Origin: Argopecten irradians
Lineage: Eukaryota; Mollusca; Bivalvia; Pectinida; Pectinidae
Reading direction: 5' to 3'
Assembly (NCBI RefSeq): GCF_041381155.1
Contig: NC_091140.1
Coordinates: 24,766,864 to 24,830,863, forward strand
DNA length: 64,000 nucleotides
Made by a program: the position numbers and the translations under genes. Of the stretch, positions 3 to 43,400 are shown one piece after another. Under the pieces are notes generated by a model, which saw only the letters and a list, made by a program, of their open reading frames with translations, was not told the origin of the DNA and ran no database searches. Position 1 is the first letter of the stretch. Each line of letters begins with the position of its first letter.

Positions 3-1892
3 GTCCATTACAAGGGTCTGGATGACTTCCCTTTAATACCTAGTCATGGGGTTGGGGTTAGTGTCCGTAGTTATTCTTACGCTGACCGTATGAAACAAGA
101 ATGTGATCATCTTACTACTCAATTCAGGCCAGCCAGTGCCTCGCTACAACATAACAACTCCGCGAGAATTGCTACGCGAAACCTCGACAAGGAGATCCAA
201 CAACAGGGAATACTGGCTGGAAAATTGACTGGTTATTATGATATGGAAAGTGAAGGTCATTTGTCTCAGGAGAAGGTTAAAGTTTATCAAGTTCACCCAA
301 AACTTAAATCACCAGAGCATAAACAAGAAAGAAAGAACGGCGACAAAAGTAGCCCCCAAAAGGAGAATGTGTCTCCATACAAACTACCGGAAAGTAGACG
401 ACACGATTTGATCAGTTCAGAAAGTGAAGATCATTTACCATCATTGAATTCACCATGTCAATTATCTGATATGACAAGCATGTTTGTTTTGATGAACACT
501 TCTGGTAGGCAATACATAGCAGAAGAAAAAGAAGTGCCGGACAAATATCCACATTCTGACAATATTGTGTGTAACACACAACTTCAGTATTGTGTACCAG
601 AATGCTGGACTAGCCCGTCCCCAGCTGTCCAGTTAACTAGTCGTATAAAGTCAAAGGATCAGCAATCTGCTGACTGTCAAGGCTCTGGACACCCATACAG
701 GGAAGGTGTGGGAACTGAAGAGGAAGATTGTGGTAGTGCATCCTCTAGTGTTTACACTATCGCTGAATCACTGGGAGATGTTAATGATTGTGAGGATGAC
801 TCAAAGAATTTGTCTGCAGACAGCACAGACCATACAAAATCCACAGGAGGGCTTCTTTATCAGACTGTGGTTGAAGCTTTCAAAGATGCTGGAAATGATT
901 CATTCCGTTCCACACACTCTGCAGACATATCTAAGGAAAGTACCTGTGGCATTTTGGATACAACTTTAAACGCACAGACAGAGCATGAATCTCGTCAATG
1001 TTTAGAGTCTAACTTCAGCAGTAACTCGGGTCCAAAGACAAACGCTCAAGGTTCTGCAGATATTGTTTCTGCATCCCCAACATCATGCTCACCTGACTCA
1101 ATCTCCCCAACAAGTCTTTATGTCCCCAGTGAAAACTCCTCAGAGATGTTTACCTGTGTGGAATTTGATGCCTCTGATTTGAACAAGGATGTAAGTGAGT
1201 TCAGTTCGGGATCGGATGTAGAAGAGATTCCCTTGGATTGTCCCCAGCAGTCTTTCCATGACGCCTGGACCGGCAGCAGTGTTGAGATTCGTGCATGCCG
1301 CTCCATGCCTCTCAGTTCACAGATGCACAATATAGAAGGGTATGGAATGGATTTAAACCAGATTATTGATGCATGGGGCTCTAATCCAAGGGTCTCATCA
1401 AGTGACCCTGCCATTCGCCACTTTGAGCTGATAGAAGAAAACACGGAAAGCAAACCATTCTTGAATTATGCCTTTTGCAGAGGCTGTTCTGAAGACTCAA
1501 GGCCACAACATGTCCCTACCTCAAACCTTGGTCTGGTCAGAAGTCTTGACCACATTGGGATTAGTCCATCTGAGTCCAAACTTTGTGACCATATGATCTT
1601 GGTGGAAGACACAGAGTCCAGGGTGAGCCATACATACCTATTTTCCTCTGACTCGCTGATGTCCACTTCTTCTGAAGATATGCCTGAGGAGTCCGGCGAC
1701 TTCTCAACAAGGTCACCTTGCCGGCCCTCAAGATTGTCTAAAATTGATAACGATAATATGAATATACTTAGATTACAGGCCCCCAGTACTGAAGCTTTAC
1801 CCATTACAAGAAGTAGGTCTGCATGTGCAGTTAACATATTTGGGTTATTGAGGTTATATCTCACCTTCAATGTTCTACCTGATACATTGTAG
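3..1892 (+). CDS. Large 5'-truncated open exon, unrecognised protein
   Basis: The frame is open from base 3 to the stop at 1892, about 629 codons; the first ATG at 90 is internal because codons upstream are also open, so the exon probably starts outside the window. The product is hydrophilic, rich in Ser, Asp and Glu, with no membrane segment, signal peptide or zinc motif that I can see, so it is probably largely disordered. I do not recognise the family. Internal strong donors exist, for example GAT|GTAAGTGAG at 1191 and CAGG|GTGAGC at 1623, so the true exon may end before the stop. It lies 630 bp upstream of PDE2A-like exon 1 on the same strand. Neither of those donors gives the phase needed to join that exon, and the only phase-compatible site I noticed, near 1813, is weak. 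It could be the last exon of an upstream gene or an alternative exon of the phosphodiesterase gene. Confidence 0.55.
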   Translation, partial: VHYKGLDDFPLIPSHGVGVSVRSYSYADRMKQECDHLTTQFRPASASLQHNNSARIATRNLDKEIQQQGILAGKLTGYYDMESEGHLSQEKVKVYQVHPKLKSPEHKQERKNGDKSSPQKENVSPYKLPESRRHDLISSESEDHLPSLNSPCQLSDMTSMFVLMNTSGRQYIAEEKEVPDKYPHSDNIVCNTQLQYCVPECWTSPSPAVQLTSRIKSKDQQSADCQGSGHPYREGVGTEEEDCGSASSSVYTIAESLGDVNDCEDDSKNLSADSTDHTKSTGGLLYQTVVEAFKDAGNDSFRSTHSADISKESTCGILDTTLNAQTEHESRQCLESNFSSNSGPKTNAQGSADIVSASPTSCSPDSISPTSLYVPSENSSEMFTCVEFDASDLNKDVSEFSSGSDVEEIPLDCPQQSFHDAWTGSSVEIRACRSMPLSSQMHNIEGYGMDLNQIIDAWGSNPRVSSSDPAIRHFELIEENTESKPFLNYAFCRGCSEDSRPQHVPTSNLGLVRSLDHIGISPSESKLCDHMILVEDTESRVSHTYLFSSDSLMSTSSEDMPEESGDFSTRSPCRPSRLSKIDNDNMNILRLQAPSTEALPITRSRSACAVNIFGLLRLYLTFNVLPDTL

Positions 1893-2586: not shown

Positions 2587-5500
2587 GTAAGACTTTAGAG
2601 CATGTGTCGTAATAAGACTCTCAGAAAGACATTTCCCATCTTAACTAGGATAAACCCAAACACCAATGAAAGTTTGTAGTACACAACACTAGCGCCTTCA
2701 GGTTACCACAGCCAACATGTTATTGATTTCACAGGAATCGTCAGGGTGTTTAATTTTAATCTCAAGTATTGCTTTGATGGATTGTGTAGCTTCAGAAAGG
2801 GTTTTATTTTCTGCGGTCTCAAAATAAAACAAGACTTGTTTGATTAAGAGGTTTTTCTTGTCCATATATTTAATTCGATCCTGCTTGATCATTATCAGAT
2901 GACATCAATGCGTACCTATTGAAATATACTGTTGTATTACTTTGATGTGTGTAAGGTATTATTCTTATGGTTTTCTAAGAGACCCAAGAAGTTGAAGATT
3001 TTTTTATATTTTTTTTTCAAATAGACCAATAGATGTTTGGTATTCTGTGATGATATGAAGTGTATTGTATTTTATAGATGTTTGGTATTCTGTGATGATA
3101 CGAAGTGTATTGTATTTTATAGATGTTTGGTATTCTGTGATGATATGAAGTGTATTGTATTTTATAGATGTTTGGTATTCTGTGATGATATGAAGTGTAT
3201 TGTATTTTATAGATGTTTGGTATTCTGTGATGATATGAAGTGTATTGTATTTTATAGATGTTTGGTATTCTGTGATGATATGAAGTGTATTGTATTTTAT
3301 AGATGTTTGGTATTCTGTGATGATATGAAGTGTATTGTATTTTATAGATGTTTGGATTCGTTTGGTATTCTGTGATGATATGAATTTATGTATTTTATAG
3401 ATGTTTGGTATTCTGTGATGATATAAGTGTATTGTATTTTATAGATGTTTGTATTCTGTGATGATATAAAAGTTTGGTATTGTAAGTGTATGTTATAGAT
3501 GTTTGGTATTCTGTGATGATATGAAGTGTATGTATTTAATTTGGTATTTGTTTGGTATTCTGTGTGATAAATGATGATATGAAGTGTATTGTATTTTATA
3601 GATGTTTGGTATTCTGTATGATATGAAGTGATGTGTATTTTATAGATGTTTGGTATTCTGTGATGATATATAAAGTGTTTTGTATTTTATAGATGTTTGT
3701 ATTCTGTAATGATATGAAGTGTATTGACTTTATAGATGTTTGGTATTCTGTGATGATATGAAGTGTATTGTACTTTATAGATGTTTGGTATTCTGTGATG
3801 ATATAAAGTGTATTGTATTTTATAGATGTTTGGTATTCTGTGATGATATGAAGTGTATTGTATTTTATAGATGTTTGGTTTCTGTTGATATAAGTGTATT
3901 GTATTTTTAGATGTTTGTATCTGTAATGATATGAAGTGTATTGTATTTTATAGATGTTTGTATTCTGTGATGATATAAGTGTATTGTATTTTATAGATGT
4001 TTGGTATTCTGTGATGATATGAAGTGTATTGTATTTTATAGATGTTTGGTATTCTGTGATGATATGAAGTGTATTGTATTTTATAGATGTTTGGTATTCT
4101 GTGATGATATGAAGTGTATTCTATTTTACAGATGCTCTGTATTCTTGATAGATGAAGAAACGGAAGAGCTAGTAGCCAAAGTGTTTGATGGAATCACTAC
4201 CAATGATAAGGAGGTACAGCATAGTTAACTTTCCATTGCACATTGTAAATGTTCTCCAAGATCTCAAATCTTATACAATTCTATTGAATAAGAAATAAAA
4301 TCTTTAGTCAAAGAAAAAACAATTCTATTGAATAAGAAATAAAATCTTTAGTCAAAGAAAGCTCCACTAGCTGCTCAACATCAAGTCAGCTAAAGGTCAA
4401 GGACATAGAAGCCTGAAGTTGAAGGACATAGAAGCCAAGCGTTTGGTTTTATGTCTTATATGCTATATGCATAGTGGAAAGAAAGAAAAAAACATAACAT
4501 GGAAGTGTCATATATAGTTTTTAATGTCATCTGATTCAGTGAAAGCAGAAGTCTTTCAGAGGCTGTACATGTTAAATAGATGGAGCTATGATTTGGTCTG
4601 TAATTCCTGAAATAGACATTATCAAGGCTATTATTTTTTCATTGTTGCATAACTGAAAATCACCTCACTTCTATAATCTGTTCATTCTGAACAAGATTTC
4701 ATTACATTTGCTTGTTCCATGTTCAATCTTTTCTCATTATATGTTGGTGGTCATTGATAAGTGTAGTGTGAAATCTCACCTTTGGATGTATGCATGCCAC
4801 CTAATTGTTTTCTAGTACATTGTTCCAGTATCATATCAATTGCAATCTGGACACCAAATGCCTGTTTGCTTTATTTGCCTGTGGTAAAATATTTACAGAA
4901 AAATTCAATACTTTTGATATTGGTAAAATATTTACAGAAAAATTCAATACTTTTGATATTGGTGTGAATTCAGGTTCAATCAGAGATCCGAATGCCAATA
5001 ATTCAGGGAATAGCAGGGCATGTAGCTACAACAGGTTAGTATCAGGAATGTCTTTATTATCTCCCTGTTATAAAGTCAATTGAATCTTTTACACATCTAT
5101 CCAATAAATATGGATTGTCCACATGGAGGTCCATTCCTCAGCCGCTGTTACCTGAGATCTATACTACATAATAACATTAATGTAGAAAGCTTGTATCTGC
5201 AGGCGATTACTTCTAATTACTTTTACTTGTGCTGGTATTTGGTCAATTGATTTTTTGATGGGAAAATAGAAACATTATGTTTAAAATATGTTTAGTCCAT
5301 TTCTGGTAGATTAACATCATGTTTCATTATAAAGTCCATATCTGGTAGATTAACATCATGTTTCATATTATAAAGTCCATACCTGGTAGATTAACATCAT
5401 GTTTCATATTATAAAGTCCATATCTGGTAATTAACATCAGTTTCATATTATACAGTCCATACTGGTAGATTAACATCATGTTTCATATTATAAAGTCCAT

Positions 5501-8500: not shown

Positions 8501-11500
8501 AATGTTTTATTTCCACAAAGATTTTGTCACAAATGTAGAATAATATGCTCCGATGATAATATTGCTGTATGGCGTAGCATCTTTTCCAGGAATTGCATCT
8601 TCTCAAAAGTCTTTCACCAGGGGCTGATTTCTCTGGCGCTCTTTCATTCTTCTACACATACTTTGTTTGAATGGGCTCCGTTTATCACTAATAGAAAATA
8701 GGTTGTTTAAGCCCTGTCTGCTTCACTACCGTACATGATTATGAAATTTTATGTTTGGTGTACACGTTCTCAACTTGGTAACAAGATAGAGTGACATGTA
8801 ACAAAAGAGATACTTTTAACTTATACATTAGATATTTGCCCTTCAGTAAAAAAAAAACCATTGAAGTCTTTGTAAAACAGCTTCTGGGTTCTTTTCTAAG
8901 AGAATGTTGTATTTATAATGTTAGTGATATTACATTTTTTTTTTATACAAAATTGCAGTTTAATTAGATTTTAACTCCCACAAATTCTGTGTGCTCTGAA
9001 ATGTTCTTTGTAGAAATATCTTTTAAAAATAATAACTTACTTATAAATTATGGAACTTGTGTTTTCCAGAAATATTCTTTGCTTCCCAATCAAGAATGAA
9101 GCAGGCAATGTGTTAGGAGTAGCCCAGCTATGTAATAAGAAGACGGGTCCGTTCTTCACAGTGTTTGATGAAGATGTTGCGTCCGCGTTCGCTGTCTACT
9201 GCTGCATCAGTATCAGCCATGTAAGTGTCACTGTCTCTATCTGTCACCAGTCCGTCTTGTTTTATAATTAGTATTACATATAGCTTCACCAGACCGTTGT
9301 CTGTCACATTGAGGTACGTAGTGTGGTATATATCTTTCAGGAATACTTTTCACTTAAGATACTACTTTCATAGCCTAGTAATGTATAAGGTGGTTAATTA
9401 TAAGCTGAGTATGATTATGTTGTTAAATTTAGACTCTGAATTAATTTGTTCTTAAATTATTTGTTCACAGTTTTTAAATTTTGACTTCGAAAAAAATATT
9501 TGAACATGATAGAATTATGATATATTTGAATAGCTACTGTTGATAGAATTATGATGTATTTGAATAACCACTGTTTAATATTTAAGTGAATATTCTGAAA
9601 TATATTCATTGAAAAATTGTCTGTGCTATCTTGTTAAGCTCTTCTTGTTTGTATATGAGTACTAAAACATGCTGCTATTTCAGTCTCTTATGTACCAACG
9701 TGTGATTGCGGCCCAGATCCGTAACAGTCTTGCCAACGAATTGATGATGTACCACATGAAGGTATAACCGCCAGCAGGTGGTCAGCATGTGGTGCCACTC
9801 TAGTGAAATGGTGCCACACCTATCTGGATGTGTTCCTTCATTCCTTTTTACCACTACTTTAATTTTATTTCAGTCTGCAATACCATAGCGGAAGACTTTT
9901 ATTTAATTCAGATCTTAACAACTTTTCAATTTCCAAGTCTTCAGTATTTTTCTATTTCTAATGCACATTATATTCCTATTGATTTAGCAGCGCAAAAAAA
10001 GTTACTCAGACATTATAAAATATAATTCATAAAGATATGGAAATTGAAGAATTGTAAACCTTATTTCTATTTGTGTCACAGAACAAAATATCTAATGGTG
10101 GAGGTATTTATTAGATGTAGTTTGAGACCTTTTATTACTTAATTTTTTTTTTTAAATTGTTTTCTTCCTTTTTAACTAATTTAAAACTCTTTAATGTTTT
10201 TGTCTCAAATGAATCCTTGATATTTCTACCATTGATAATTTGGTCTTGCTGTATGTTGTGTTGATATGATGTGTGTGTTTTCTGTAGTATATATGTGTTG
10301 TCTCCATATAAAGTGTCAACCATCTGTTGCTTTCAGAACTCTTTATTCTATACATGTTTTACCCACAGGTTCCACTCCTTGAACACAGCCATTTATTGAT
10401 TCACCTAGTTATACGATAAAAAAAATCACAACAAATGGTCATGGAAACCACGAAAAAATCATAACATTTGAACACAGAAACCACTACATCTCCATTGACA
10501 TTGTTATTTTCAATAGTCCACCTAAGACTGTTTATAATATAAATAGCCCATGTTAGATGTTAGGAATTGTTTTCCCTGAAAATATCTGTGAGCTGTTAAA
10601 ACTGACTTTTGGAGGAAACAAAAGTGATAAAAATGTAAAACCCAGGGAAAAATTAGAAAAGAACATTACAAGTGAAATTCTCGATTTCCAGTGATTGTAA
10701 CGATACAATGAACAGCTCCAGATTCATTAGAGTTTGTCAGGCTGCCAGCATTAAATCATATAATTAGTTACCAGATATCATAGATCGCTATGATAAACCT
10801 GCACATTGCTCTTTGAATTTGACATCCCGCTAATTAAATTGGAGATTTATTCTGATTAGAATGAATAAAAATGTTTCAAAGGAAAGTTTCAATTTATGTT
10901 GATCTTTGGATTACATGGAACATGGATCAATATAGCCATTTTTAAATCAATAAAATACTTTATCATTGTAGGCGATGTCACAATACAATGTAGATGTTCT
11001 TACTGTGACTGTGTCCCTTTCTAAATTGAACTGCTGATCAACCCATCTGGATATGCAAATAATGTAATTTAAGTCACACGTTGTGTGGAAGCTGCAATTG
11101 CAATGAGTTTAATGATATGGAGTATATGACTAATTGTGCAAAAGAGCCCAAGTGTTTTGGCAAAATTTTAGAGTTTGGATATTGGAGCATATTTGATTTA
11201 CAAAGAAGCAATCCCAAAACATTTGAAAAAGAAATAGAAAAAGGATGGGGTTGGGGTTAGGTGTAGAAATAGAAAAAGGATGACGTTGGGGTTCGGTGTA
11301 GAAATAGAAAAAGGATGGGGTTGGGGTTCGGTGTAGAAATAGAAAAAGGATGGGGTTGAGGTTAGGTGTAGAAATAGAAAAAGGATGGGGTTGGGGTTCG
11401 GTGTAGGGACCTTACACACTGTTACTACTTGAAAGCAGAGAGATGTGGAAAAGGTTTTAAAATAATCAACCACTGTATAATGCTAGACTGCCTAATTATG

Positions 11501-37915: not shown

Positions 37916-39696
37916 ATGTATGACAACATCCATTTTCATGAGTTGGCCCCTGTGATAAGTGGTATATTCTTAAAATTATGTCACTTACAAATGTGATTGA
38001 AAGTGATAAGCAAATGTTTATTTCCATTATTATTATTTCCTCAATCCATTGCCACTTCTGTACATTCCTTTGCGACACGTTTTGTACAACATATTGCCAA
38101 AATTGCTGTACATTCCTTTGCGTTGCGTTACCTTTTTGTACAACATATTACCAAGCTTTGCTCTCATATTATTGTATTCAGAGCCCAGCCGACTGTTTTT
38201 GTATTACACTTGGCTCCCACGGTACCTAACTCATCTGAGAGAAATGAAAATGTTACATGGGTGGATCAATACACAGATTCTGAGGGTCTTGCTGATTTTA
38301 GACTGTTCCCTATAACATAAAAAAAGAATATTGTTTAAAGCTGTACCTACAACGGAAGATAAGCAAATAATTAGATTGATCACAAATAAGACAAATGATT
38401 CTTTCATAAACATGGTACTGTAATAATGTATCATGGTAGGGCGTGATAATTAATGTACATGTAGCAAGGCATAATATTAATTTTGTAATTAAGTGTTTAT
38501 CGTCTTACAGCATAACACCACAATACATACAATGTATATAGTGTGACAGAATCATATATCCGGTACAGCTATATATGGAATTAAACTCTCTATATATTCA
38601 CATGTCAGTAAATAGTATAATGAATTACTTCAATGAAATAAACACCTGTTTAAACCCTATACAGTATACAACACACCAAGTGTAAACCCAGATATATAAT
38701 CAGTGATGTAGTACGTTTTGTATCGTGGCGGTAGTCGGTGCTTCCAGTGCCCGCTAGGGCTGGGTTATCGCAGCTTGTATTTTGTCAACCTTGAACTGAT
38801 AATAGAACATCAGCCACGTACATGCTGATGAGTGGGGCCATAACTACATGTACATGTAGCAGGAAATAAGGGTTTGAATCTAACTATACCTGACAACACC
38901 GTGTTTTCCTGCCTACACGCGGTGTACATGTGTGTACTTGTGATATTTAGTGCACTATGTGCATGCAGTAGCTGCAGTTTGTGATAGAGATCTTGTACTT
39001 GTTTCACAGTCACGTAGATAAGGAATCCTGTGTGTGCCGCTAAAACTTCGTCAGAAAAGTTCTTAAGATTAACAGGATTCCATTGTGGATAAAGCAGTTT
39101 TAACAGTGGATTTGAAAGTGGGTTTTATATTTCTTGATATACGTATACATTGTACACGTGTGCTGGACTAACGCCGATGTCAATGTTCCCGGGTACGCAA
39201 AGCCAATGTCCGAGGGCGACCCCAGGTCATTCAATGAGTTGACTATACGTCCACTACATGTAGGTTAGTGACATTAATTTAACCGTATCTGTTCTCCAGT
39301 GTCCGGTAGAGGTGATAAACCTATAGAGGGTATACGGCCTAGCGTGACCTGTCATTCCATTGATTGGAGAGTAATCAGATGTAACGACTAGATATTCCTT
39401 CCGTGGGATACACATGTCACAATTAACACTGACTTTATCGATCGACAGTCCCTAACCGACTCTCCTGTTTTTCCTGAATTGTTTTGGCCTAGTATTGGGA
39501 AAGTCACGTGGTTCCAAGTTAACCTTGGTCTATGTGTTTATCGATATTCCCTCAAGAGTATAACGTCATTTTTCTGTAAATTGTGCTAGATTATCAAGTC
39601 TATGGATCACGGGATTTCATTTTCACCATTTTAGTGTAAATTGCAGTTGGAGCCAGTACATTAGAACAATAGCACGTGCATGTAAATAACGTCACT
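37916..39696. other. Intergenic DNA and probable AnmK 5' region
   Basis: A roughly 55-bp imperfect duplication (gtacattcctttgcg ... tttgtacaacatatt) lies at 38,057-38,150. No gene recognised. A candidate acceptor (gtgtaaattgcag) ends at 39,646, 50 bp before the AnmK start, so a 5' UTR intron is possible. Confidence 0.5.
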
Positions 39697-40431
39697 ATGA
39701 CATCCTTTACAGGACTAGGGTGCATGTCCGGGTCCTCCCTGGACGGACTTGACTTATGTCATGTCGAGTTTACGGGTGACATAGAAACTGATATTTGGGG
39801 GTACCACATTTTGGAGGCAACCACAATTAAATACAGCCCGGAACTTACCGAACGTCTCCGAAACGCTGCCAAACTTTCCGGAGAGGAACTCATCAAACTA
39901 CATATGGAATATGGACATTATGTCGGGCGTACCATTAAAGAGTTTTTGGAAAACAAACAAGTGGATTTCGTAGCATCCCATGGTCATACGGTATTCCATC
40001 AACCCCATCTCGGGTACACCTTCCAGCTTGGAGATGGGGAGACAACCGCCTCTTACCTCAACAGTCCTTTCGTTTGTAACTTTCGCAACAAGGACGTTGC
40101 ACTTGGAGGCCAGGGTGCGCCATTAGTCCCTAATGGAGAGAAATTTCTGTTCAGTGCTAACGATATATGTATAAACCTCGGTGGTATCGCCAATATAGGC
40201 CTGAGGGGTCAAGGAGGGTACGATATTTGTCCATGTAACTCGGTTCTTAACAGACTGGCCAAAGAAATGGACCCGTCCCTAGACCAGGATACTGATGGTA
40301 CCATTGCCGCCAAAGGTTCCGTCATTCCGGAGGTACTGGACCGTTTGGAGGCCCTACCGTTCTACAGTAAAGAACCGCCAAAATCACTAGGAGCGGAGTG
40401 GATAGAGAAACACGTAGACCCCATTCTAAAC
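39697..40431 (+). CDS. anmK: AnmK exon 1
   Basis: 245 codons, phase 0 end, covering the N-terminal ASKHA-type lobe and the catalytic region through PPKSLGAEWIEKHVDPILN. It is a single long exon without introns, as expected for a gene of bacterial origin that later acquired one intron. Confidence 0.9.
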
Positions 40432-43400
40432 GTACGTATGGTAATCTTGTTGTAAATGTAAACACCTGTAAAGCAAATAGCATGAAAGCTTTTGATGATT
40501 AGTTGTTGATATTTCTATAATTTTATCGACCAGGCCATGTAAAGACGTGGTAAGGTTTGTTTGGTGGGTGAAAACCAGAGCACAATTTTATATGTACTTG
40601 GAAAAAAATTAACCGACCCACGATCAGCACCTTACAACTGCCACTTACAGCGATACCGCTTATTATTTAGCAAAACTTCAAACGGTAAATAGTTTGGATC
40701 CCTTTGTTCTCCCACACATCTCGGCGACGACCAGTTTGCAAAGCGTTTCGGATTGGCCGATTAGTCAGGGAACAGTATCGGCGTGAGAGTGATGTAATAC
40801 GTGGGTTTCGAACTCACGGAGAATGTTAAGGGTACTAGGTGTGGATTCCGGTTTGTAGCGGGTTTTTTTCAATAACGACTGTGTTTTAAAGTAGTTACAT
40901 CCGTAATATGGTTTACACATCATATAAGACCTTTTGTTGAAGGCTCTTGTCATGTGTTTCTGTGGTATAAAACAAGAATGTCTAGACGCCATCCCTTTGT
41001 CCGTATGTTATATTTTTGATCAGTTATAATAGCCTTAAGTATAAGATCTTTATAGTTTTGCATGTTAAACTGTACCTTTGTTATCTATTGCAGAATTAGG
41101 AACATGTTTCGTAGTTTGCTAAATGAACTCCTGGTATTCATTTATCTTCTGCTTTCACACTCAAACATTCACGATAAACAGATATGATCGAGTAAATTCT
41201 ACATATGAAGTTTGTTTGTCTGCGTGTTAGCCAAAGCCTTTTAGGGACGTGTCAGATAAAGATGGAGGAAAATCGGAGTACCCGGAGAAAAGCTACCATC
41301 ATACGTTCAGTAACTTTTGGACTCGCTGCCAAGAGGGCTAGTGGTATACATTCCATGTGTCGGGACACTTTATAAAGCTTGTTCCCTACTCCCTATCTCT
41401 GCAGAGACCGCGTGTAATGAAAGTATCGAACTACAGCTCCCCACCTCTTGACCGTGATTTAGAATAGAAATTAACATAGAAAAGTATCTAGGTATCGACC
41501 GTTTCTCCCTGGTACGTTTTAAACGTGTAACAGTGCGGTTATAGGGTTAAATGTGGTACATAGTTTTGGGGTCAGCTTTATGTTTAGATGTCATTTCATT
41601 GTGTACAAAGCTGAAAATATTTGACATGACATGCTGTTTTGTGTGGCTGTGAATTTTGTTTACACAAATCAACATCCGGCAATGATAGTAAATCTCTTTG
41701 TATTGGTGTTATAATAGATCCTCGTAAGCCGGAAGTAAGACATCAGTATTTTATTTAAACGTCTAATCACCTTTCTGGAATATAGCTTTTATGGAGCCCT
41801 ATAAGAATCTTTGACATTAAAAGCGGTCATGGGCATCATAATATATAATATGGGTCAAAAGTAATATCAATGAGTTACAAATGTACGCGGGATCTTTATA
41901 AAATGTATATATAAATTATACACAAACGTATTTCTGTAGGATACGTAGTCCGCTAAACCTGCCTATATTATTAGGCTTTTTAATTTATTTTTTTTGCCTA
42001 ATATATAATAGGCAAAAAAAAAAAAAAAAAAGCCTAATAATATAGGCAGGTTTAGCGGACTATAGGATACGGTCACTTCAAAATACATACATTGTAAATA
42101 AGGGAGAAGGAAGTAACCCAAACCACGTGTACAGGCAAACTAGATTGTCGAATTGTCAAGTCTGTCCCATAATCAGGACACGCATGATAAAACAAACACG
42201 GTCACATGATAGAAAAAGAATGTACAATATATTTATAATCTATTGTACTTTTTTCGTTAGAATAAATCGAGTGAATTGACCCATGGTCTGTGGTATGACT
42301 CTAGCAATTGGCTGTATAGTCGGTGTTACACACACAGGCCTTTCATTTTAAGAAAAATATTATATAAAATATCTTGGTGGGAAAAAAACCTGACCAATCA
42401 CGTGCCAGCAGAAACTTCAATTGAAGATTACAGAGCAACGTCTAACTTCAAAGCCAAACAATCAATCACATTGTACCGTTGTTCGATTCTTTTGACGTAC
42501 ATCGAAATATCAAATGCACGGTCTCATGTTCTGTCGCAGACAAAGTCATAAGTTTTTCTATGACTTGGTCTTGGTGTGGATATCATGGCAGTAATAGTAA
42601 CCCTTGGATTATCGAGGGTGGTACCACACATCTACATGTATAACCTGCAGTGGGGCCGCGGTGGCCGACACGTATTACCATTAGACCTATAATTTTAGGT
42701 TGCAAGTTCAGAACCCGCGCGTTGCCAGAACGTAACCAATAGTCGGTGGTTTTCCGCATGGTACCGCGTCTTACATAAAAGAGTTTCTGTTGTAGTGGAA
42801 AAGCTATCTCACTTCAGACTAAAGTTTCATAGTTAGATTGGGAAGGTGATATATTTTCCGCCCCAGCAGTAGCTACAATGTAGCTTTCATCCACCTTTAA
42901 ACCTGTTATGTCCTTAATACATGTAGATTATCGAATCTGGCTGTTAAAAGGACGTAAACATATAAACCTAAATGTGTAAACCTGCCCGCACTTAATAGCG
43001 AAATCTGCTTTGTTAAGGTTTGCTGTAGGAAACTACTTTTTAATTGAATTTCCCTGTACATTTGCACTTCCATGCATGTACGTGTAAATTGTTGGTCATT
43101 TTGTTGGCACACGTTGGAATTTAGATCGAATCCCATGTGGAATTGTTACCAGGTACTGGTCTCAAGATAGTCGTTTGCTTCGGGTACTTTGGTTTCCCTT
43201 GCACATTTGACGGATAGCCAGCTGTCAATCAAACCGCACGTGATTTTGCATTTCGTATTGTGTATGTATGCTACGTTGTTAGCTCCGACATTGAACAGAA
43301 ACACGTGCGTTTTCGAACACAATGCGTGGCTATTTTACACTTGGCGATCGGTTAATGACATTGGATGTAAATCCATTTGACTTAAATTACAAAGATGATC

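Follow-up and report, generated by a model that had tools for sequence, protein, structure and literature searches.

In the human IFI6 (6-16) gene, the repeat units of a minisatellite serve as alternative donors and give rise to three mRNA species (Turri et al. 1995, as cited in PMC4526556 and PMC2572611). An intronic VNTR in ABCA7 (PMC5954066) has been linked to exon skipping, VNTR6-1 in TERT (PMC11830802) to a splicing switch that involves a G-quadruplex, and the Rlec lectins of prawns contain variable coding repeats, the number of which is ascribed to slippage, together with alternative acceptor use in the same genes (PMC7536079). The 45-bp minisatellite analysed here resembles the ABCA7 and TERT arrays in being intronic and in having a length that is possibly tied to the splicing of its host gene, PDE2A. 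It differs from them in that its units are, by alignment, copies of a splice site, a feature that the passages describing the ABCA7 and TERT repeats do not attribute to those units. Among the literature matches listed, with subscription papers outside the scope, there was no acceptor-bearing minisatellite lying beside its source exon.

Results

The host gene and the exons flanking the array

The plus strand of the window, which is the whole 64-kb stretch of DNA analysed, carries the GAF-B and catalytic part of a gene that is, by its closest similarity in both of these domains, a PDE2A orthologue. PDE2A structures were the best match of the catalytic exons (~2e-91), with PDE5 as the next family (~2e-36), and the peptide spliced from the exons around the array matched PDE2A GAF-B at 9.6e-23 (best 1mc0). 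The 16 acceptors of the gene were placed from exon edges read by eye. On the plus strand, the intron that holds the array (2587–4131) lies between an upstream GAF-B exon (2523–2586), which ends within the split codon AG/A at the donor GAGAG/GTAAGA, and the GAF-B exon 3′ of the array (4132–4213), which opens by completing that codon (R) and ends at the donor AAGGAG/GTACAG. The native acceptor is contained in the last 17 intronic bases (4115–4131, plus strand; TTTTACAG), which have a matrix score of 9.19. The earlier note had assigned the exon beside the array to GAF-B, in agreement with the PDE2A match, and had numbered it exon 2 of the gene, which does not hold, since exon 2523–2586 precedes it and the window is itself preceded by GAF-A sequence. 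When the genome was searched with Pfam GAF, three matches were listed, the PDE2A gene not being among them; the GAF-B of this gene is split over exons.

Several other features of the region were observed. In a region made up of window positions 3–1889 and positions 9948–9999 of the stretch just upstream (L041), the last GAF-A-side exon (AMLEVAKNLFTHL) has a strong donor, CACCTAG/GTGAGT, and splicing of this exon to position 2523 yields FTHLDDLTKLL, as in PDE2A. Past this donor, the frame remains open for ~630 codons more and base use is skewed by codon position, so that the exon may have an alternative extension that inserts a long in-frame segment between the two GAF domains. No Pfam or NCBIfam model matched this 629-aa ORF at E 0.001. 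A tandem duplication of 2.4 kb (L040, 2416–4769 and 4767–7146; 98.3% identical), located approximately 13–17.5 kb upstream of the window, contains two copies of an exon-like sequence, LEDHTNAEFGFMLLVVPETQELYCQ, with CAG before and GTAAGA after, that are identical over the 170 bases compared. From its position and on visual inspection, LEDHTNAEFGFMLLVVPETQELYCQ looks like a GAF-A exon; compared with PDE2A GAF-A it scores 0.6 bits, short of significance. The window also contains, at 39673–40452, an ORF similar to bacterial anhydro-N-acetylmuramic acid kinase within this animal genome (1.1e-86; 291 bits vs a cut-off of 436).

Anatomy of the array

TRF placed the array at 3029–4157 of the plus strand with a period of 45, 24.7 copies, 88% matches and 9% indels. 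The 45-bp array described in the earlier note is thus present, and as a head-to-tail series of many units within the roughly 10–100 bp size range it is a minisatellite. It abuts the native acceptor at 4132 and reaches into the exon: because the TRF array ends at 4157, its last partial unit is the start of the exon itself, namely the first 26 bases of exon 4132–4213. Cutting the array at AG/ATG produced 23 upstream intervals, of which 13 measure exactly 45 bp (units 1–7, 15–17 and 21–23) and ten are off-length (53, 44, 54, 103, 44, 47, 43, 40, 43 and 43 bp). Nine of the 23 intervals are identical, which suggests recent turnover of the array, and the same nine identical units suggest that it is probably length-variable between alleles.

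The series of about 24 tatag decoy acceptors reported earlier was recovered as a row of upstream acceptor-like sites, but with a different count, as TATAG is present in 21 of 23 upstream AG/ATG sites. TTTAG occurs at 3909, and the first site in the row, CAATAG at 3031, falls outside the best 45 of the 74 AGs of the intron by matrix score. A search of the genome's own DNA (one assembly) revealed no second allele and no processed copy of the exon among its best candidates. Folding of the last three units together with the exon showed no excess stability of RNA structure (z −0.28), with 76 of 200 shuffles folding as well.

The unit as a copy of the acceptor and exon start

Sequence alignment supports the earlier proposal that the unit copies the acceptor and about 26 exonic bases: by this comparison, the unit reproduces, with some divergence, 17 bases from the end of the intron and 26 from the start of the exon, at a level well above chance. 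It differs at two positions from the intronic part, where the native sequence has C at −11 (G in the unit) and C at −3 (T in the unit), and it aligns with the exonic part over 28 columns with 22 matches, four mismatches and two single-base gaps. The start of exon 4132–4213 scored 14 against the unit and none of the other 15 exon starts of the gene scored above 2. This score of 14 was reached by none of the 59,670 plus-strand and 59,700 minus-strand 26-mers of the window outside the array (0/119,370), and by none of 20,000 mononucleotide shuffles. A stricter test, end to end over 28 bases, gave a weaker result, with 2 of 5,000 dinucleotide shuffles and 1 of 19,658 window 28-mers as good.

The peptide of exon 4132–4213 is conserved in PDE2A (AE.CSVFL.D) whereas the unit peptide is not, which points to copying from exon to unit, and the exon is taken here as the source and the unit as the copy. 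By the best alignment the source measures 43 bp and the unit 45 bp, so the length would have become divisible by three later than the duplication. At its left edge the array is without the 17-base intronic part, which a clean duplication would have left; either the founding duplication was not clean or that edge has since been lost. Perfect two-copy tandem duplications of 44 and 39 bp were also seen in the next intron, at 4275–4360 and 4882–4963, the second of which stops 10 bases short of the acceptor at 4974. They may be young seeds of the kind that started the array.

The likeness to the exon would be coincidental if the PDE2A array belonged to a dispersed family of 45–47-bp minisatellites. 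When the genome was searched with the unit, the best candidates included no close match elsewhere, and contigs C11, C12 and C13 matched at 70–71%. The C11 match was rejected as a related array, as it sits at an AATAC microsatellite. The arrays on C12 (L008, 1045–1800) and C13 (L009, 545–1592) have 46–47-bp units and flanks that look alike by eye; they match each other at 83–86% in four places and at 72% in a fifth, and are perhaps parts of a dispersed element. Both match the PDE2A unit at ~70%, a likeness for which the E-values are inflated by tandem repetition and which, for one C12 unit, was equalled by 2 of 400 shuffles, which would be an ordinary outcome in a genome with tens of thousands of arrays. 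In the whole genome, the 18-base junction word ATTGTATTTTATAGATGT was found only in the PDE2A array (15 matches) and the C12 array (12), against one match for the backward control, but the word was picked after the match had been seen. We count this sharing as chance after the fact, while allowing that a real tie is conceivable. As the match between exon and unit is far stronger than the likeness to C12 and falls in phase at the edge of the array, descent from a dispersed family appears very improbable.

Strength of the unit acceptors

The acceptor matrix was built from the 15 other acceptors of the gene and a generic prior. With 9.19 bits, the native acceptor at 4132 is the best of the 74 AGs in intron 2587–4131, and the runner-up, at 2899 (6.84 bits), lies outside the array. 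The acceptor of the standard unit scores 5.04 bits, 4.15 below the native site, with 3.2 bits of this difference arising at −3 and 0.95 at −11; 17 of the 23 array sites reach at least 5.04 bits and the remaining six are lower. T occupies −3 in all 23 array sites, and C is found there at the native site and in 13 of the 15 other acceptors of the gene. In a leave-one-out test, 5 of the 16 real acceptors of the gene fell below 5.04. The standard unit thus scores inside the range of real acceptors, which makes use of the units credible, though as weaker sites, and is in keeping with their earlier description as acceptor-like. By these scores the units carry plausible splice sites, as in arrays of the IFI6 kind.

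A high matrix score is not in itself enough for a splice site, as 32 of 846 AGs in 11 other introns reach at least 5.04 bits, and four reach at least 9.19. Within −50 to −15, the sole yUnAy word lies at −49 for the unit and the native site alike, in the TTTAT of the preceding unit, and such a word is present in this interval for 14 of the 15 other acceptors. As judged from sequence, branch-point words do not separate the unit from the native site.

Reading frame and possible transcript outcomes

A frame table of the 23 sites showed that the three 45-bp units at 3997–4131 (plus strand) open into the exon: exon starts at 3997, 4042 and 4087 are in frame and would add 45, 30 and 15 residues, respectively. 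The other 20 sites hit a stop before the exon. The last three units therefore run in frame into the exon with the peptide given in the earlier note, except that the first start is at 3997 rather than 4001 and the last unit reads ILFY rather than IVFY. Since 20 of the 23 sites lead to a stop, the "multiples" of the 15-residue unit that it envisaged amount to one, two or three in this allele, and the idea that the array in general stays in frame was not borne out. Only one of the ten off-length intervals is a multiple of three, giving no sign of coding constraint. A random 45-mer of unit composition is open in this phase in 19.8% of cases, or ~7% when the one-third chance of a period divisible by three is included, and units 1–7, from which reading ends at a stop within unit 8, are no less well preserved than units 21–23. 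For these two reasons the open frame was rejected as evidence of selection. The array sequence shows no sign of coding selection, and its last three units are too alike to be tested alone.

The frame data bear on in-frame exonisation, in which the last one to three unit acceptors would be used at a real rate, generating PDE2A isoforms with 15, 30 or 45 additional residues ahead of CSVFL and probably with altered cGMP binding, the choice shifting with allele length. Such isoforms would be compatible with the open frame from 3997, 4042 and 4087 and with a unit score inside the range of the gene's real acceptors, and the human IFI6 minisatellite provides a parallel as a supplier of alternative donors (PMC4526556). 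The units nevertheless fall 4.15 bits short of the native site, mostly through the T at −3, and the stops from 20 sites, the indels that ignore frame, the equal preservation of the stop-leading units 1–7 and the ~7% chance of an open, in-phase unit all count against exonisation, which we consider unlikely.

The stops themselves could be functional if the unit acceptors were used mostly out of frame, such that the length of the array lowered PDE2A mRNA through nonsense-mediated decay. Poison splicing of this type would draw on the 20 of 23 sites that give a premature stop and the 17 of 23 that score at least 5.04 bits, and in ABCA7 and TERT the length of an intronic VNTR has been linked with the skipping of exons or with splicing that leads to decay (PMC5954066, PMC11830802). 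However, the native site is the strongest of all 74 AGs in the intron, and a role in dose control seems quite improbable to us.

Minisatellites in the genome at large

To place the array in its genomic background, 20 regularly spaced stretches of 10 kb from two contigs were sampled (200 kb). They contained 18 arrays of at least five copies, covering 16.0% of bases, 5 points of which derive from one stretch that is wholly a 24-bp array. Extrapolated from 0.09 arrays per kb, the genome total would be ~76,000 arrays. The window has six merged arrays of at least ten copies, and two other large arrays, of 41 and 59 bp, lie in introns of the PDE2A gene. We take acceptors to occur about once per 4 kb, on the basis of general gene numbers; at this frequency and this density of arrays, mutation should often place the edge of an array near an acceptor. 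Of 25 arrays examined, 7, the PDE2A array included, had a unit that resembles an acceptor on one strand (at least 5.04 bits), and the notion that such a unit is a rarity among arrays was rejected on that count. In one of the sampled stretches, a 36-bp array (L038, 121–834) has a unit with the strong acceptor-like word TATACCTTACAG (10.06 bits).

Discussion

We think it likely that the array is a neutral minisatellite, probably variable in length, which has taken up a 3′ splice site, a by-product of a minisatellite-rich genome and not a selected isoform generator. Starting from what can be read directly, namely the array, its copy relation to the exon, the frame outcomes and the relative matrix scores, we infer the mode of expansion, the splice choice, neutrality and length variation. 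A local tandem duplication would have copied 17 bases at the end of a PDE2A intron together with 26 at the start of the exon that follows, and the copy would then have drifted away from this source, becoming two bases longer according to the best alignment. The near-identical units point to slippage or unequal exchange as the means of expansion to ~24 units. We take the native acceptor at 4132, which retains C at −3 and C at −11, as the main site, and the units would act as weaker 3′ splice sites that are spliced out with the intron. Leaky use of a unit would mostly lead to stops and decay-prone transcripts; only three sites would lengthen the protein, by 15, 30 or 45 residues placed immediately ahead of the GAF-B strand CSVFL. 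The insert would be positioned between the helix ending in QAE and this strand, which, going by the PDE2A GAF-B structure literature, presumably carries a cGMP-contacting serine.

Several points count against this reading. Use of the unit acceptors is credible from their predicted strength, with 17 of 23 sites at 5.04 bits or above and 5 of 16 real acceptors lower, and the three units adjacent to the exon are intact, in phase, open and of credible strength. The small basis of the matrix (15 sites and a generic prior), the step from a 43-bp source to a 45-bp unit and the missing intronic part at the left edge weigh on the same side. With the IFI6 donors and the ABCA7 and TERT repeats as parallels, the exonisation proposed in the earlier note is a fair hypothesis. 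At its fullest, such use would turn the array into an isoform ladder: a length-variable series of complete 3′ splice sites whose last in-frame units enter a share of transcripts, placing 15, 30 or 45 residues before the strand with which GAF-B, the cGMP-sensing domain, begins. The number of enzyme molecules that respond to cGMP would then be set by the length of the allele and the sequence of its units. We regard a ladder of this kind as distinctly unlikely.

Whether or not the captured splice sites are used, the array constitutes a natural titration of 3′ splice-site choice, in which 23 similar sites precede a single stronger one and only two bases separate the native site from the standard unit in the 17 before the exon. 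If units are used in cDNA, the worth of C versus T at −3 and of the tract becomes measurable, and the locus shows how a tandem repeat can turn intron into exon. If no unit is used, it shows robust acceptor choice in a minisatellite-laden genome.

Set beside the known systems, the PDE2A array shares with the prawn Rlec genes a repeat number ascribed to slippage and alternative acceptors, here as predicted sites, but the Rlec repeats are located in coding sequence and are not described, in the account given of them, as splice-site copies. As at NAGNAG tandem acceptors (PMC3250501), in-frame acceptors would compete at one exon start; the NAGNAG shift is three bases, whereas the PDE2A array offers 45-base steps and 23 upstream sites, mostly out of frame. 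The likeness to IFI6 lies in minisatellite units that carry splice sites at the edge of an exon. In IFI6 these are donors, with their use in RNA reported in the citing accounts, whereas in the PDE2A array they are acceptors, predicted from sequence.
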